Shown: piece by piece, positions 1 to 32,600 of the stretch
How the letters are laid out: each line of letters begins with the position of its first letter
How positions within the stretch are numbered: position 1 is the stretch's first letter
NCBI RefSeq assembly: GCF_030409505.1
Contig: NZ_JAUFPZ010000002.1
Coordinates: 1,116,001-1,180,000, forward strand
Direction of reading: 5' to 3'
From: Zunongwangia endophytica
GTDB lineage: Bacteria; Bacteroidota; Bacteroidia; Flavobacteriales; Flavobacteriaceae
Length of the DNA: 64,000 nucleotides
Made by a program: the position numbers and the translations under genes
Notes under the pieces: model-generated
Told to the model about the DNA's origin: nothing
The model's input: only the letters and a program-made list of their open reading frames with translations
The model's database searches: none

Positions 1-163
1 GAGAAAATATAAATAATAAAATCAATATTTATAAAGTTTTTTTCTGCCCTATTTGATAAAAATTAATAATTGAAATTTGATAGATTTATTAATTATTTTT
101 AAAATGTAGAAATGGAAAAAATTATTGAATTGTACTATGCAGAACGTGTCGGCAAAGCTGGCA

Positions 164-289
164 ACAATGGTTATAATTAATTGCTACTGAATTTTCTATC
201 GAAAATTCAAGACTTTTTGCTAAATTTAGTTACACAATTGAAAATCCTAGCGGATTTTCACGCAACATAATCATAACCCAAACCGTTGT
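164..289. repeat. attC-like structured repeat, copy A (upstream cassette boundary)
   Basis: The outer arms can fold on each other: ACAATG (164-169) pairs with CGTTGT (284-289), and GTTATAATTAATTGC just inside pairs with the segment GCAACATAATCATAAC near 262-277, leaving six bases (CCAAAC) bulged on the right side only. Two inner perfect hairpins lie between them: GAATTTTC/GAAAATTC (189-208, loop TATC) and AAAATCC/GGATTTT (242-258). A second, diverged copy lies at 994-1121, directly after the gene at 338-1006. AAC on the left and GTT on the right plus a one-sided bulge recall integron attC sites, but the GTTRRRY core is not exact. A 22-codon reading frame at 112-180 ends inside this repeat and may be the tail of a lost cassette gene. 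Cassette function is inferred. Confidence 0.6.
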
Positions 290-337
290 GCGTAAGCTAA
301 AAACAGCAAATTTCACAACAGGTAATTCGACTAAATT

Positions 338-1006
338 ATGATGATTGACAAAGAATTTATTGACAAAACCGAACGTTCTGAATGGGATTTTAGCAACGAA
401 ATTCTTTACTCAATGTGCAGAGAAAATTTCACTCATACACAAACGGACAAAATTATTGGAAAAACCGTTTTAATTGGTCGAACTTATGCAGCTGCAATTG
501 AAAGAAGAAAAAATAAAACCAAAGAGGAACAAAACGATAATTTTTATATTGACAAAGTTGCACCTGAATTTAAAAAATCAAAATTGGATTTTTATTTAGA
601 AAAACTGAAATCTGAAACAGAACTGGACGAAAAAAATATTCCCGAAATTTTAAAAGTTCATTTTTATTTAACTAGTTTGATTAAGGAATTAACAGAGCAA
701 AACAAAAGATCTTTTTCTTCAAAATATTTACATTTCCATCTTCCTCACTTATTTTTTATTTATGATACAAGAGCTGTAAAAGCAATTGGACTTTTAAAGA
801 CGAAATTTCAATATAAATACAAAGAACAAATTAATTCGGAAAATGCTGATAAAGAATACGCATCCTTTTTTTATAAATGTTTTGCTCAAAAAAACAAATT
901 GAAAAACGAATTTAATAGAAAAATATCGACTCGACATATTGACAATATATTAATGAAAGCCGTGGAACTGAATGAAACAAAAGCCTACGCACAACAACGT
1001 GTATAA
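338..1006 (+). CDS. hypothetical protein, probable mobile-cassette cargo
   Basis: A 222-residue protein that I cannot assign to a family. It is charged, rich in Lys, Glu and Asn, with no signal peptide or membrane segment, so it is probably cytosolic. The middle (about residues 125-150) holds a conserved-looking patch, SSKYLHFHLPHLFFIYDTRA, that recalls helical DNA-glycosylase-fold proteins, but this is too weak for a call. Two Met codons (338 and 341) can serve as start. The stop codon lies inside the left arm of repeat copy B, and copy A ends about 48 bp upstream of the start. This tight fit between two like-oriented structured repeats is the layout of a single-gene cassette. Function unknown. 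Confidence 0.7.
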   Translation: MMIDKEFIDKTERSEWDFSNEILYSMCRENFTHTQTDKIIGKTVLIGRTYAAAIERRKNKTKEEQNDNFYIDKVAPEFKKSKLDFYLEKLKSETELDEKNIPEILKVHFYLTSLIKELTEQNKRSFSSKYLHFHLPHLFFIYDTRAVKAIGLLKTKFQYKYKEQINSENADKEYASFFYKCFAQKNKLKNEFNRKISTRHIDNILMKAVELNETKAYAQQRV

Positions 1007-1121
1007 TTAATTGCTTTGGTCGTTGCCTATTTGGAAAATTCCTTCGGAATTTTCTCACGTTCGTTTTTGTTTACTAAATTAGTTGCTTAACCACGCAACT
1101 AACCATACACAAACACGTTAG
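994..1121. repeat. attC-like structured repeat, copy B (downstream cassette boundary)
   Basis: Same design and length as copy A. The left arm ACAACG (994-999) pairs partly with CGTTAG (1116-1121). The next segment TGTATAATTAATTGC pairs with GCAACTAACCATACA (1095-1109), leaving CAAACA bulged on the right. An inner perfect 9-bp hairpin GAAAATTCC/GGAATTTTC lies at 1034-1054. Compared with copy A, the GT/AC pairs of the inner stem are replaced by TG/CA, so pairing is kept while bases change. The upstream gene's stop codon (1004-1006) is inside the left arm. The IS3-family element begins 10 bp after the right end. Confidence 0.6.
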
Positions 1122-1130
1122 CGGTAATAT

Positions 1131-1155
1131 TGACTCGTCCTGAATAAAGGCTACA
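1131..1155 (+). repeat. IS left terminal inverted repeat
   Basis: Begins TGACTCGTCCTGAATAAAGG and ends CTACA. It matches the reverse complement of 2406-2430 at 19 of 25 positions. It lies 15 bp upstream of the orfA start, so it probably overlaps the transposase promoter. Confidence 0.85.
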
Positions 1156-1169
1156 TAATTTCAAACATT

Positions 1170-1541
1170 ATGTATAAAAATGACAGAGTAATCAGACGGT
1201 ATTCCGAATCGTTCAAACTAAAAATTTTAGACGAACTTACGGCAGGAAAATTAAACAAGTATCAACTAGGTAAAGCTTACGGTATTGCTCCAACAACCAT
1301 CAACGAGTGGATCAAAAAATATAACCGTAAAGACCTTATGAACACCAGAGTGACTGTGAAAACAAAAGATGAGATTACACGCATCAAACAGCTTCAAAAA
1401 GAAATTGAACAGCTGAAGAAACTTCTTTTGAAAAAGGATATGGACGCCCTTATAGAAGATTCTTATCTTGAAGTGGCAGCAGAACAGCTGGGCTATAAAT
1501 CAGTGCTTGAACTTAAAAAAAAACTAAGTATCAAGCCTTGA
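1170..1541 (+). CDS. IS3-family transposase OrfA
   Basis: A 123-residue DNA-binding subunit. The N-terminal half holds a helix-turn-helix (about residues 12-50, around YQLGKAYGIAPTTINEWIKK), followed by a Leu/Ile/Lys-rich coiled coil (about 68-92), as usual for IS3 OrfA. The stop codon overlaps the start of orfB by 4 bp, with orfB in the -1 frame. A run of nine A (1515-1523), read in frame as three Lys codons, lies just before the stop. It is a good slippery site for the programmed -1 shift that makes the OrfAB transposase in this family, and the -1 frame is open from 1517 onwards. Confidence 0.92.
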   Translation: MYKNDRVIRRYSESFKLKILDELTAGKLNKYQLGKAYGIAPTTINEWIKKYNRKDLMNTRVTVKTKDEITRIKQLQKEIEQLKKLLLKKDMDALIEDSYLEVAAEQLGYKSVLELKKKLSIKP

Positions 1542-2392
1542 TCAAGGCCAAGCATAAATCCAGAGGATCTGCATCCCTTTCAGCCATAACAGCCTATTTT
1601 GGCCTTAAACGTGACGCCTACTATAAATACAAACATAGAGAAGACCAACGTTCAGAAGTAGAAAATAAGGTTGTTGCCATAGTCAAGAAAAGGCGCAGAT
1701 CCCTTCCTAGGGAAGGTGTTAGAAAACTGACCAGATCACTCGACAAAGAGTTTACAAATGCCGATTTAAAAATAGGTAGGGATACCTTATTCAACATTCT
1801 TAGAAAACATAATATGCTTACACTTAGAAAAAAATACAGTTCCAGAACCACCAACTCATTGCACAGGTTCCGCAAATACAAAAATATCATCAAATACCTC
1901 AAAGTAACAAAACCCAACCAAGTCTGGGTAAGTGATATTACTTATATAAGGACCATAAAGGGCTTTTGTTATCTGGCGCTAATTACAGATATGCACAGTC
2001 GTAAAATAGTTGGTTATGATATAAGCAATAGCCTAGAACTTAAAGGCTGTCAGAGAGCTTTTAACAAAGCTTTATATCAAGCTGAAGATACTACCGGGCT
2101 AATACACCATTCCGACAGAGGTATTCAGTATTGTAGCAATGTATACACTCAAATCCTTAAAAGAAATAGCATAGAAATCAGTATGACTGAAGAAAATCAT
2201 TGCTACGAAAATGCAATCGCAGAACGGGTAAATGGCATATTAAAAGACGAATTCTATCTCGACCAGACCTTTGATAGCCTACAACATGCTAAGAGGGCTA
2301 CAAAAAATGCAATTAATTTGTATAATGAAATAAGATTACATTTATCTTTAGACTATCAAACACCAAATATGGTGTATAAATTAACAGCGTAA
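1538..2392 (+). CDS. IS3-family transposase OrfB (DDE integrase core)
   Basis: A 284-residue retroviral-integrase-type catalytic domain. The N-terminal third resembles the HTH_21 region of IS3 transposases. The DDE triad is visible: Asp in VSDITY (about residue 132), Asp in HHSDRG (about 191), and Glu in ENAIAER 36 residues later, matching the D-35-E spacing of the family. The first codon at 1538 is TTG and has no clear ribosome site; expression is more likely as an OrfAB fusion by -1 slippage on the A9 run at 1515-1523. The frame is intact to the stop, 13 bp before the right inverted repeat. Confidence 0.92.
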   Translation: MIKAKHKSRGSASLSAITAYFGLKRDAYYKYKHREDQRSEVENKVVAIVKKRRRSLPREGVRKLTRSLDKEFTNADLKIGRDTLFNILRKHNMLTLRKKYSSRTTNSLHRFRKYKNIIKYLKVTKPNQVWVSDITYIRTIKGFCYLALITDMHSRKIVGYDISNSLELKGCQRAFNKALYQAEDTTGLIHHSDRGIQYCSNVYTQILKRNSIEISMTEENHCYENAIAERVNGILKDEFYLDQTFDSLQHAKRATKNAINLYNEIRLHLSLDYQTPNMVYKLTA

Positions 2393-2405
2393 ATCAATTT
2401 TAACC

Positions 2406-2430
2406 TGTAGCCATATTTTAGGACTAGACA
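2406..2430 (-). repeat. IS right terminal inverted repeat
   Basis: Reverse complement begins TGTCTAGTCCTAAAATATGG and ends CTACA, matching the left end at 19 of 25 positions. It defines the right border of the IS, 16 bp before the next start codon. Confidence 0.85.
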
Positions 2431-5542: not shown

Positions 5543-6574
5543 TTGTCTCGTAAAACTTCCAAAAACATACTGCGCATTGGCTTAGCTTTAGGTACAATTA
5601 TTTCCTTATTTTTTGTTCCGTGGATACTATTAAAAGCCTGGTTGATGCCTTTACCCACTACTATTCAGGAACAGGCGAATGAAGCTATTAAACTTGGTTT
5701 TGATGGAATCATTATATATGTAGATAAGAAAGATAGCGAATCTGAATTTTACACTGCCGGATATAAAAATAGAGCAACTAAAGTTCCGGCCGATCCTAAT
5801 ACACTATTCAAAATAGCAAGTGTAAGCAAATTGTATAAAGCAGTGACTGTAGCAAAATTAGTACGAGAACGAAAACTATCTTTAGATAAAACATTGAGTG
5901 ATTATTTGCCTGAATTAAAAAACAGAATAGAAAATGCTGATAAAATTACTTTGAGAATGATGGTAGAGCATCGAAGTGGTATTCCTAATTATACCGATAC
6001 TTATATGTATTGGGCTGCCCCAAAAGAAACGGCAGATGAAAACTTGGCGTTGGTTTTAGATTTACCTGCTAAGTTCGATCCGGGAGACGATTATGAATAT
6101 TCTAATACCAATTACCTACTAATTGATCGTATTATCAATCGAGTGCTAGGGTACGATTCATTTATTTACATTCAAGAAAATATATTAGATCCGCTAGATC
6201 TTAATAATACTCATGGATCGATTGAAGATGTAGATATCAATAATGTAATGAGCGGTTATTATATTGGTTACGAGCAGGATTTAAAAACGGACAAAGTAGA
6301 TTCAATGGTCTCTACCGCAGAAGATGTAGGAAAATTTATTAGGGCTCTTAACGATGGTAGTGTTTTTAAAGATCAAAAAGAAAAAGACATTTATTCTTCA
6401 ATTTATCGATATAACCACACCGGTTTAATACCCGGTTATCAAACCATTGCTAAATATCATGATGATATCGATGCGGTCGTTGTTCAATTTACAAATACTA
6501 CAAACTTTGACGGCTACGAATGGAATTTAAACGAAATAGTATATAACAGAATCGTTAAAATACTTCGTAAGTAA
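5543..6574 (+). CDS. serine hydrolase, beta-lactamase class C / PBP-like
   Basis: A 343-residue protein with an N-terminal hydrophobic segment (about residues 10-34), so membrane-anchored or exported. The penicillin-recognising fold is clear: SVSK (Ser93 nucleophile, Lys96), YSN in EYSNTNY, and HTG in YNHTGLIPGY near the C-terminus. Family members are D-alanyl-D-alanine peptidases, esterases or beta-lactamases; the substrate cannot be read here. The start is TTG at 5543: there is no in-frame ATG nearby upstream and the hydrophobic segment follows at once. It stands alone between two other exported-protein genes. Confidence 0.85.
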   Translation: MSRKTSKNILRIGLALGTIISLFFVPWILLKAWLMPLPTTIQEQANEAIKLGFDGIIIYVDKKDSESEFYTAGYKNRATKVPADPNTLFKIASVSKLYKAVTVAKLVRERKLSLDKTLSDYLPELKNRIENADKITLRMMVEHRSGIPNYTDTYMYWAAPKETADENLALVLDLPAKFDPGDDYEYSNTNYLLIDRIINRVLGYDSFIYIQENILDPLDLNNTHGSIEDVDINNVMSGYYIGYEQDLKTDKVDSMVSTAEDVGKFIRALNDGSVFKDQKEKDIYSSIYRYNHTGLIPGYQTIAKYHDDIDAVVVQFTNTTNFDGYEWNLNEIVYNRIVKILRK

Positions 6575-29645: not shown

Positions 29646-32600
29646 TTAAAATGATAAATCAACACCTAGCATAAAAGTCCTAGGTCTTGGATAAGTTCCA
29701 TTATCAAAACCTGGATTCAAGATTCCCGAATTAAAATCAGGATTGTATCCTTTATAGTGCTGAAAAGTGTGTAAATTTTGAACTGTTCCATACACTCTCA
29801 AAGAGTTTATAGCACTATCAAAAACATCTTCTGGTAAAGTATATCCTAAAGACAAGGTATTGATTCGTAGATAATCTCCTTTTTGCAACCAACCTGGCCT
29901 GTTGGAATCACGTGCATTGTTATTAGGATCATCGGCAACAACACGAGGAATATTCGTATCTGTATTATCCGGTGTCCATCGATCCAAAATATCTTCATGA
30001 GCATTAATGTATCCAGTAGAAAGCATTAGCGATCTATATAATCTACTATTTATATAGTAACCTGCTGCACCTGAAGTAAACATAGTAAAATCAAATCTTT
30101 TATAATTAGCTGTGAAATTTAATCCAAAAGTAACACTTGGAAGCGCGCTACCTAAAAATGTTCTATCATCAGCATTGATTTCGCCGTCACCATTTAGGTC
30201 TTCAAATCTTACATCCCCGGGCGCAGCTCCAGGTTGAAGCGCATGATCATCCACTTCTGCCTGAGTTTGAAAAATACCGTCATACACAAATCCGAAATGT
30301 TCGCCTACTTCTCTTCCGATCTGGGTCCTAGATCCAGTTCCATTAATCGGCTCTTGATTTCCTCCTAATGCTAATACTTCATTATCTATAGTACTCGCAT
30401 TTGCAGAAATATCAAAATTAAAATCTTCACTAGTATAATGATAAGTTACTTCTCCCTCGAAACCAGAATTTCTAATACTACCAGCATTTACTAAAGGATT
30501 TACATTAACAGAACCTGTTGACCACGGAATTGGAACTCCTACTAGTATATCTTCCGTCTCTCTTCTATAATAGTCCAGAGTTACATCAATCCTGTTATTA
30601 AACAAGCTAGTTTCCAATCCTATATCTAGCGATTTTGTAGTCTCCCAAATTATATCTTCGTTAATAACACTAGTTTGCAAGCCACCTAAAACTCTATTTA
30701 GATTGAAGTTATACGGAATAGTTCTATTGATAACTGCCTGATAAAGATAATCACCTATGTTTTGATTACCAAGTTCACCATAACTTACTCTTAATTTTAG
30801 ATTACTTACTAGATCATCAGAAACATTAAAAAACTCTTCGTTATTTATTCTCCATCCTAAAGCTACAGATGGAAAAGTTCCCCATCTATTTTCTTCCTTA
30901 AACCTAGAAGAACCATCTCTTCTTAACGTCGCTGTTAAAAGATATCTATCGTCAAAATTATAGTTAAGTCTACCAAAATATGACGCAATTGAGCTTTCAA
31001 TTTGCTGACCTCCTACTGTTTGATTAACACCATTAGAAAGTATAGGATAATACGGCTTAGGTAAGTCTTCAGAATGTGCAGTTCTTATGACAGTCTTATT
31101 TTCCTGATAAGTTTGCCCCAAAATAAGATCAAAAGTATTTTTACCTAAGGTAGTTTTATAGTTCAGCGTATTTTCTATAAGTCCTACAGTATATATAGTA
31201 GAATTGTCATCTAAACGAGATATCCCAGATCCAAAGAAATAACCCATCTCAAATTCAGGAACAAAAGAAAAACTTCTCACATGAGTTTTGTCATAACTCG
31301 TGTTTAACTTGTAGGTTAATTCGTGATTGTCGTTATCAATAATTTTAAATTCTGGATTAACGATCGCAAAAATTCTATCTACTTCAACATTATTTGTAAA
31401 AAGACTATTTATACCCGGTACGTTTAAAATAATTTCCTGGTGAATTTCAGATGACGTTCCAGCATAACCACCTTCATTATTTTCATCGTAAATTCCTAAC
31501 GTTGGAATAGAATTAATTAAATCATTAATTAAAGGAGGACGTCCCCCAGTTAATACATCGTCTCTAAACGTCAATGAATTTTCAAAACTATGTGTGTAAT
31601 AAAGCGATGGAGATATCTTAAATCTTCCTTTCTCCATTACGGTATTAATTCTTCCAGAATATCTTTCATAATCTGGTCCATTACCTACAAAAATCCCTTC
31701 ATTTTCAAAATAATCGATAGAGGCATTATAAGTTATATTTTCACCACCACCAGATAAGCCAATGTTATGATTTTGTCGGTGTCCATTCTTTAAACCAACT
31801 GATTGCCAGTCTGTATTAATATCATCGACAAATAAATCAGAATTAGGATCGTTTCCTGGTATTAGAGGCTGTCCAGCATTCAATCTCTTCTCATTAGAGA
31901 TCATCTGGTAATCTTCTCTACCTAAAACAGGAATTCTTTGAGCCACTTCATCAATACCGTAATATCCACTGTATTGAATTTTTAATGGCGAATTTTTTCT
32001 ACCTTGTTTTGTAGTAATAATTACAACTCCATTGGCTGCTCTAGATCCGTAGATTGCACCTGCGGAAGCATCTTTAAGAACCTGAATACTTTCAATGTCA
32101 TTTGGATTAAAATCCCTGATCGATGTTCCAACTGGCACACCGTCTACAACATAAAGTGGCTGGCTATTACCAAAAGTAGCTACTCCACGAATTCTAACAT
32201 TTGCTCCAGCTCCCGGCTGTCCATCAGCAGTAACCGTAACACCGGCTGTTCTACCTTGTAGCATTTGAGAAACATCACTGTTAGAAACTTTCTGGATTTC
32301 GTCGGCGTCTATTACACTAACCGATCCCGTAAGATCTTCCTTACGTTGCGTACCATATCCAACTACAACGACATCGTCTAAGGCATTCAAATCATCAGAT
32401 AATGCAACATTAATTTCAGTTTGGGCACCAACTGAAACCTCCTGCGGCTTAAATCCAATAAAGGAATAAACAATTACATCGTTTGCGTTAGCCTCAATAG
32501 AGTAATTACCATCGATATCGGTAACTGCACCATTGTTTGTACCCTTAATAATAACATTAACCCCGGGCAATGGCAGACCATCGCTTTCAGAAGTTACAGT

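Follow-up and report, generated by a model that had tools for sequence, protein, structure and literature searches.

The left end of a 64,000-nucleotide stretch of the Zunongwangia endophytica genome (the window; C2:1116001-1180000 of a 4.38-Mb genome in three contigs) carries two copies of a structured repeat around one gene, raising the question of whether this gene is a mobile cassette and, if so, to what kind of system it belongs. The first-pass annotation had described two repeats of the same orientation around a single gene, with the stop codon of the gene within the left arm of the second repeat. Both observations are correct: one open reading frame (338-1006, 222 aa) is flanked by copies A and B, whose orientation is identical, and its stop codon (1004-1006) falls in the left arm of copy B. 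The features of this region are as follows.

1 to 285, plus strand: 3' part of the preceding cassette, which starts left of the window and is 565 bp long.
155 to 296, plus strand: attC-like site A, assigned by covariance model R1 (105.6 bits), by sequence and by DNA folding; AAC at 163-165, left arm at 169-184, right arm at about 262-278, GTT at 285-287.
286 to 1117, plus strand: putative mobile unit, one 832-bp cassette, from the TT of site A to the G of site B.
338 to 1006, plus strand: cassette gene, 222 aa, stop codon in the left arm of site B.
985 to 1128, plus strand: attC-like site B, assigned by covariance model R1 (129.6 bits) and by DNA folding; AAC at 993-995, left arm at 999-1014, GTT at 1117-1119.
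1131 to 2430, plus strand: IS3-type element with orfA (1170-1541) and orfB (1538-2392), HTH_Tnp_1 and rve domains.

Site A closes the preceding cassette and spans 163-287 from AAC to GTT; site B spans 993-1119, and the right arm of copy A has one extra base. The DNA folding z-scores of copies A and B were -3.1 and -2.6 for the top strand and -3.4 and -2.9 for the bottom strand. Shuffled sequences folded as well in 5/200 cases for the top strand of copy B and in 0/200 for each of the other three strands. The bases following the GTT of copy A matched the left arm of copy B at 7/7 positions and the left arm of copy A at 2/7, indicating that the cassette unit is 286-1117; the stretch 285-298 is 93% complementary to 982-995 at the left arm of copy B. 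The earlier view of repeats flanking a gene therefore stands, with the refinement that the moving unit would be the segment from TT to G and not the repeat itself. Copies A and B are the only sites detected with R1 at E 1 in the 64-kb window, and the array goes on leftward.

The protein encoded by 338-1006 gave 0 matches in Pfam and 0 in PADLOC, and among the 198 other family genomes searched a single one had a homologue (G198, 46%). No site at E 1 was detected in the 3.6 kb examined around the G198 gene, so the family is not found exclusively in cassettes. The preceding 565-bp cassette has no ORF of 60 aa or more and its part in the window (1-285) is 79% like a cassette at piece position 80385 (C2 = 1016000 + position). 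No Rfam family matched in the window.

Many further copies were found across the genome with copies A and B as DNA queries, and covariance model R1 was built from 29 copies, over which its structure has 13 consensus pairs, 6 of them with double-sided changes. R1 gave 173 matches at E <=1 in 369 kb (the window and other stretches), some of which are antisense echoes of the palindromic sites. The site counts given here rest on the best 150 of these 173 matches, with 6 of the 150 dropped for lack of AAC or GTT and opposite-strand matches left out. Aligned to R1, the AAC was present in 144 and the GTT in 148 of the best 150, and site length was 110-199 nt, mostly 120-129 or 180-189. The main-strand sites were distributed as 101 in C2:1016001-1260000, 25 in C2:150001-230000, 1 at C2:4.17 Mb and 14 on contig C1. 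Of the 127 main-strand sites with AAC and GTT on C2 (among the best 150 of 173 matches), 126 form three one-way blocks.

C2:1027985 to 1117128, plus strand: block 1, 70 sites, the last being copy B.
C2:1188301 to 1231365, plus strand: block 2, 31 sites.
C2:173167 to 207202, minus strand: block 3, 25 sites.

Contig C1 (24,875 bp) contains 18.4 kb that are 99.96% identical to part of block 1; it is an alternative assembly, a second molecule or an array variant. Among 122 intervals shorter than 5.2 kb (median interval length 988 bp), the longest ORF of at least 60 aa was forward in 100 (IS transposase genes included) and reverse in 9, and 13 had none; stop codons often lie 10-14 nt ahead of the AAC. 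The 127 sites on C2 and these 100/122 intervals agree with the first-pass proposal that the repeats recur and alternate with different genes, and contradict both findings named there as speaking against it, namely repeats present only here or always beside the same gene.

If a circle is cut at GTT, the bases after the GTT and the left arm of the next site lie in one cassette and so must pair with each other. On C2, these bases matched the next left arm at 6 or more of 7 positions in 99/124 comparisons (68/124 exact), and the left arm of their own site in 5/127 (0/127 exact). Inclusion of contig C1, which duplicates part of C2, gave 108/137 (73/137 exact) for the next site and 5/141 (0/141 exact) for the own arm; the random expectation in this genome is 4.0% at 6/7 or better and 1.0% exact. 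A similar pattern was obtained at 40 loci of other genomes, in which 229 of 235 sites were used, 6 being without AAC or GTT: the next arm matched at 6/7 or better in 145/156 (102/156 exact) and the own arm in 4/156 (3/156 exact), against 3.7% and 1.3% at random. It is thus the next and not the own arm that is complementary; both halves of one arm therefore lie in the same cassette, which is what circles cut at GTT predict. The arm match extends about 9 nt past the GTT. On C2, 25 of the 124 next-site comparisons scored below 6/7, and 17 of these intervals are longer than 1.3 kb; several of the 25 contain IS copies or could conceal an undetected site.

The first-pass annotation had placed the recombinase serving such cassettes outside the window. 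In agreement with this, one of the 16 PF00589 matches of the genome, a tyrosine recombinase of 403 aa encoded at C2:1026224-1027435, heads block 1; no recombinase was found alongside blocks 2 and 3 in this search. The gene lies behind a tRNA gene, 550 bp ahead of the first detected site of block 1 and about 89 kb left of the window. The protein has an N-terminal part of about 105 aa, a core-binding domain and a catalytic domain, and its closest named relatives are those of Zunongwangia sp. HGR-M22 (83% identity) and Z. atlantica (73%). Homologues at E <=1e-50 were found in 110/199 family genomes. The 60 loci analyzed comprised the homologues ranked 2-41 and 20 lower-ranked, hand-chosen ones, some of which (such as G121, G006, G009, G087 and G084) were previously known to have nearby sites. 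Sites were present at 51/60; all 9 empty loci have less than 300 bp of contig downstream, and where more than 300 bp was readable the proportion was 51/51. Out of 235 site hits at these loci, 234 are downstream of the gene and 229 on its strand; of the six other hits, one (L180) is upstream and each of the remaining five overlaps a site on the gene's strand. Two homologues matched without the N-terminal part (G085 C24:282572-284687 and G141 C2:492523-495827) have a site nearby on the opposite strand, so these are possibly divergent arrangements.

An attI-like GTT lies 36 nt after the recombinase stop codon in this genome. The left arm of the first detected site was used as a probe against sequence that follows a GTT downstream of the stop codon. 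A match of at least 6/8, judged by sequence only, was obtained in 43/51 loci (7/8 in 32), against 4.7% and 0.4% at random, and 8/51 loci fell below 6/8. The attI-like GTT is 27-45 nt behind the stop codon in 29/43 and 63-205 nt in 14/43. The sequence ATATAACnAGTT recurs at the attI-like site of the long recombinase subfamily, and members of the short subfamily have other, often hairpin-like flanks.

Array content was also compared with that of a genome of the same genus (G100). Synteny runs through the tRNA and recombinase genes, stops at the attI-like GTT and resumes at about position 6543 of the window; between these points there are 95 kb here and about 22 kb in G100, most of the content is different, and the listed hits longer than 250 bp correspond to a few cassettes. 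The comparison of relatives proposed earlier thus revealed turnover of content at the level of the array rather than of 338-1006 by itself. Within the Z. endophytica genome the intervals gave eleven clusters of similar sequences, two of which are insertion-sequence copies; one 1024-bp cassette occurs at three places with 99-100% identity, and two other cassettes of block 1 or 2 have a further copy in block 3 (99%).

The window cassette is therefore very likely one unit of a chromosomal integron-like capture platform with a dedicated tyrosine recombinase. The original suggestion of a mobile cassette system of flavobacteria is supported by the cassette units, by the recombinase at the array head and by the turnover against a relative. 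In the proposed mechanism, a circular cassette (TT, gene, left arm and on to G) would be recombined at GTT, presumably by the array recombinase, with the attI-like site that follows the stop codon of the recombinase gene. Cassettes would also leave and enter the array by recombination at attC-like sites, with a single orientation throughout. Arrays would thus grow from attI, be shuffled by excision and be broken up by insertion sequences.

The fold of the sites bears on the strand that may be used. The outer arm of the circular form has a C·A mismatch at one position in 109/122 cases and a Watson-Crick pair there in 0/122. Ungapped inner arms of 16 bp were found in 102/127 sites; they have no extrahelical bases and carry A·C at positions 7 (81) and 12 (86). 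On the bottom strand the three conserved A·C mismatches become G·T wobbles, and this strand folds better than the top strand in 114/122 sites (mean 3.4 kcal/mol), compared with 48/130 random stretches of the same array. Sites of other genera gave the outer mismatch in 126/146, the inner ones in 138/168 and 154/168 and a better bottom strand in 143/146, counts that are not fully independent because the site-finding model came from training on this genome. If the left spacer is taken as 3 nt, the right spacer is 5-6 nt and resembles the unpaired spacer of attC. In known attC sites, according to the available excerpt of PMC2727003, the strand is set mainly by an extrahelical base. The attC-like site thus probably works as a folded bottom strand, and the asymmetry between mismatch and wobble could tell the enzyme which strand to use.

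The main alternative keeps the same platform with double-stranded recombination, the A·C mismatches serving another end such as preventing a hairpin replication block. Such a role would fit a recombinase without the insertion that lets IntI read unpaired bases, and the mismatches do weaken the hairpin. On the other hand, all three point one way and favour the bottom strand by a mean of 3.4 kcal/mol, a bias that equal weakening would not need. We regard this alternative as unlikely, although it is the strongest of those considered, and retain the folded single strand as the probable substrate.

The likeness to integrons raises the question of whether the recombinase is an IntI. Against model TIGR02249 it scored 197 bits, split in two stretches, for a cut-off of 265, whereas the plasmid IntI1 used as a control gave 505.7 bits in one piece. 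In the alignment with IntI1, the 11/11 family members shown are without the IntI insertion and 11/11 have an N-terminal extension of about 70-105 aa. Residues 182-246 of the IntI4 chain face only residues 289-310 of the query; the array recombinase thus lacks the IntI-specific insertion near patch III. The available text of PMC8138268 describes this insertion as essential for integron function, though not fully conserved in the subgroup studied there, and PMC9668308, in the part accessible, uses it as a defining mark. The system probably works like an integron, but its recombinase is not an IntI by this mark, which places it outside the canonical integron family.

An ordinary integron remnant, that is, an attC cluster without integrase whose cassettes are moved by a true IntI here or in a donor, is improbable. 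The topology of attC is shared (AAC and GTT ends, two arm pairs, gene stop at the left arm), and AAC and GTT are the only conserved attC bases according to the excerpt of PMC2727003. Blocks 2 and 3 have no recombinase, and Bacteroidota (or Bacteroidetes/Chlorobi) appear among integron-bearing groups in the available parts of PMC8618304, PMC9668308 and PMC2426708. Against this, a search with TIGR02249 at E 1e-55 found a true IntI in 0/199 family genomes, none being above the cut-off (0/14 control genomes matched in the same search), and the array heads are occupied by a recombinase that is not IntI. An IntI elsewhere was accordingly rejected, and the dedicated recombinase at the array head is kept as the preferred agent.

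The R' core motif of canonical attC is GTTRRRY. The sites of the present system have GTT followed by variable bases, e.g. GTTGTGC, GTTAGCG and GTTGCCA. The first-pass annotation had noted that the match to this core was inexact and that the system might be distinct; this was well founded, since the GTT is kept, the bases that follow it are cassette-specific and the recombinase scores below the curated IntI cut-off.

Mobilization by the host XerC/XerD, as in pdif modules, with the third recombinase as a bystander, is more doubtful still. The catalytic domain of the array recombinase is Xer-like: its best NCBIfam model is NF040815 (231 bits, cut-off 220) and its best PDB match is XerA (5hxy). 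In 21 genomes searched with PF00589 at E 1e-20, such a protein occurs beside at least two further Xer-length ones (open frames of 297-341 aa). As a control, the highest-scoring Xer-type gene (about 300 aa) was analyzed in 20 of the genomes that supplied the homologue loci, and 3 hits within 10 kb, one of 107 bits, were found in 2/20 loci, in contrast with the 51/51 readable loci of the third recombinase. Furthermore, the first cassette matches the GTT behind the third recombinase gene. pdif sites are dif-like and about 28 bp long, a length far from the 120-129 or 180-189 nt of most sites here. The pdif explanation was rejected on site length and on the recombinase link, which lies elsewhere. 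The array recombinase is related in sequence to XerA, XerC and XerD, and differs from them in its N-terminal part, in its link to cassette arrays and in a C-terminal PLD motif, present in 8/11 family rows and in IntI1 and absent in the three Xer rows aligned. A tree separates the recombinase family from the Xer rows; the IntI1 branch (3.33) is so long that the place of IntI1 is unsure, and no kinship with IntI is claimed from this tree.

Non-mobile structured repeats behind genes (terminators or REP-like elements), which would account for sites that fold and often lie just past stop codons, were rejected with near certainty, as a static repeat gives no reason for complementarity to the next site, for an attI-like start or for identical cassettes at several places.

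The array recombinase thus appears to drive a platform that shares with sedentary chromosomal integrons a single recombinase gene with an adjacent insertion site, a long array of one orientation in which most cassettes hold one gene, foldable AAC...GTT sites, a cut region at GTT and turnover. The marks of a canonical integron found here are the foldable AAC/GTT array, the pairing of the cassette start with the left arm of its own site and the attI-like site (43/51 loci). It differs from sedentary integrons in a recombinase without the IntI insertion and with an added N-terminal part, which may have a role in recombination. It also differs in that this gene is transcribed in the cassette direction and toward the attI-like site, and in a strand asymmetry lodged in three A·C (G·T) mismatches, with no GTTRRRY motif. 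Chromosomal integrons of Treponema also have intI transcribed toward attI in the cassette direction and, in the part of PMC3607928 available, are treated as intI integrons, whereas the recombinase described here falls below the IntI model. Blocks 2 and 3 resemble the CALIN of IntegronFinder (attC clusters without IntI) in having sites without a nearby recombinase; block 1, by contrast, is headed by one.

R1 sites were found in 173/199 family genomes at E 0.001 and, at E 1e-5, in 61/296 phylum genomes including other families and classes, with at most 16 and 11 sites, respectively, scored per genome and stricter filters. A relative of the recombinase (36.6% identity) is encoded by a plasmid of Chryseobacterium sp. 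SNU WT5 (L255, NZ_CP041688.1), and is followed by five co-directional matches of weak to moderate score (35.2 to 19.8 bits); a sixth, weaker one (14.9 bits, E 0.086) lies elsewhere on the opposite strand. The presumed array of this plasmid also contains a group II intron and an IS110 transposase.

With some reserve, we lean towards the view that Bacteroidota hold a second kind of integron, with a Xer/IntI-like recombinase that never acquired the IntI insertion, sites folded from the bottom strand, a strand read from three G·T wobbles instead of extrahelical bases, and perhaps an N-terminal domain of its own. Most Flavobacteriaceae would then carry it, as would other families of the phylum and at least one plasmid, and it would have been missed so far because searches key on IntI. 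In the available text of PMC7790495, single-strand recombination of integrons is credited to the I2 insertion of IntI, and direct proof of causality is said to be open; attC-like folded sites without this insertion would make that claim testable from the other side. The part of the IntegronFinder 2.0 paper available (PMC9024848) names one complete integron within Bacteroidetes, in Salinibacter ruber, and reviews list Bacteroidota as integron-bearing without detail in the portions accessible (PMC8618304, PMC9668308). If the present reading is true, a widespread bacterial family carries a large gene-capture platform without mention in that survey, as far as its accessible part goes. No description of the present system was recognised in the accessible text of the open-access literature, preprints and most subscription journals aside. 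Many such proteins carry the NCBI name 'site-specific tyrosine recombinase/integron integrase', so the link may be known to annotators by name.

A set of 86 cassette proteins, which leaves out IS transposases, ORFs shorter than 90 aa, four ORFs crossing stretch ends and exact repeats, with near-copies remaining, matched 71 PADLOC models and 52 Pfam families at E <=1e-5; the models overlap and are not system counts. Among the matches listed are AbiLi, PifA, Aga_TIR, nSTAND3, SLATT, HEPN_LA2681 and PemK-like models. Since cassette proteins match PADLOC defence models, the arrays may be a reservoir of anti-phage genes. Some cassette families, about 470-750 bp in length, lack a long forward ORF; one of these families has eight members (67-99% identity). 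ORF-poor cassettes occur at 1-285 of the window, at piece positions 30845, 63782, 71204, 93651, 98229 and 180300, numbered as above, and twice in block 3. In the 100 kb left of the window the tRNA was the sole Rfam match, with none for block 1 cassettes.

At C2:4168941-4170068 (L053:5941-7068) there is another recombinase gene, broken and of the shorter subfamily, that is followed by two sites. Its copy in G100 is 97.7% identical over 1.9 kb and has an array behind it, and one cassette family is present in both G100 arrays, so two platforms can coexist in one genome. Contig C1 of G100 also encodes eight near-equal-scoring 304-aa tyrosine recombinases, of which five map to 2.15-2.37 Mb and two to 1.275-1.287 Mb, next to the two arrays or within them; these are probably another mobile element.

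The element at 1131-2430, which we take to belong to the IS3 family, starts 14 nt from the G of the site B GTT, the same offset being found in 9/10 copies on C2 pieces; it is a site-targeting insertion sequence at attC-like sites. Matching 3-bp flanks (TTT, TTG, TTT, TTA) were present in 4/10 copies, and the window copy (left flank TAT, right flank TTT) is one of the six without them. The end of the array at copy B is probably due to an insertion sequence. It is possible that recombination or deletion between two IS3-type copies eliminated the remainder of the array, the flanks alone being no proof of it. A second IS type starts about 17-20 nt after the GTT in the 5 copies looked at.
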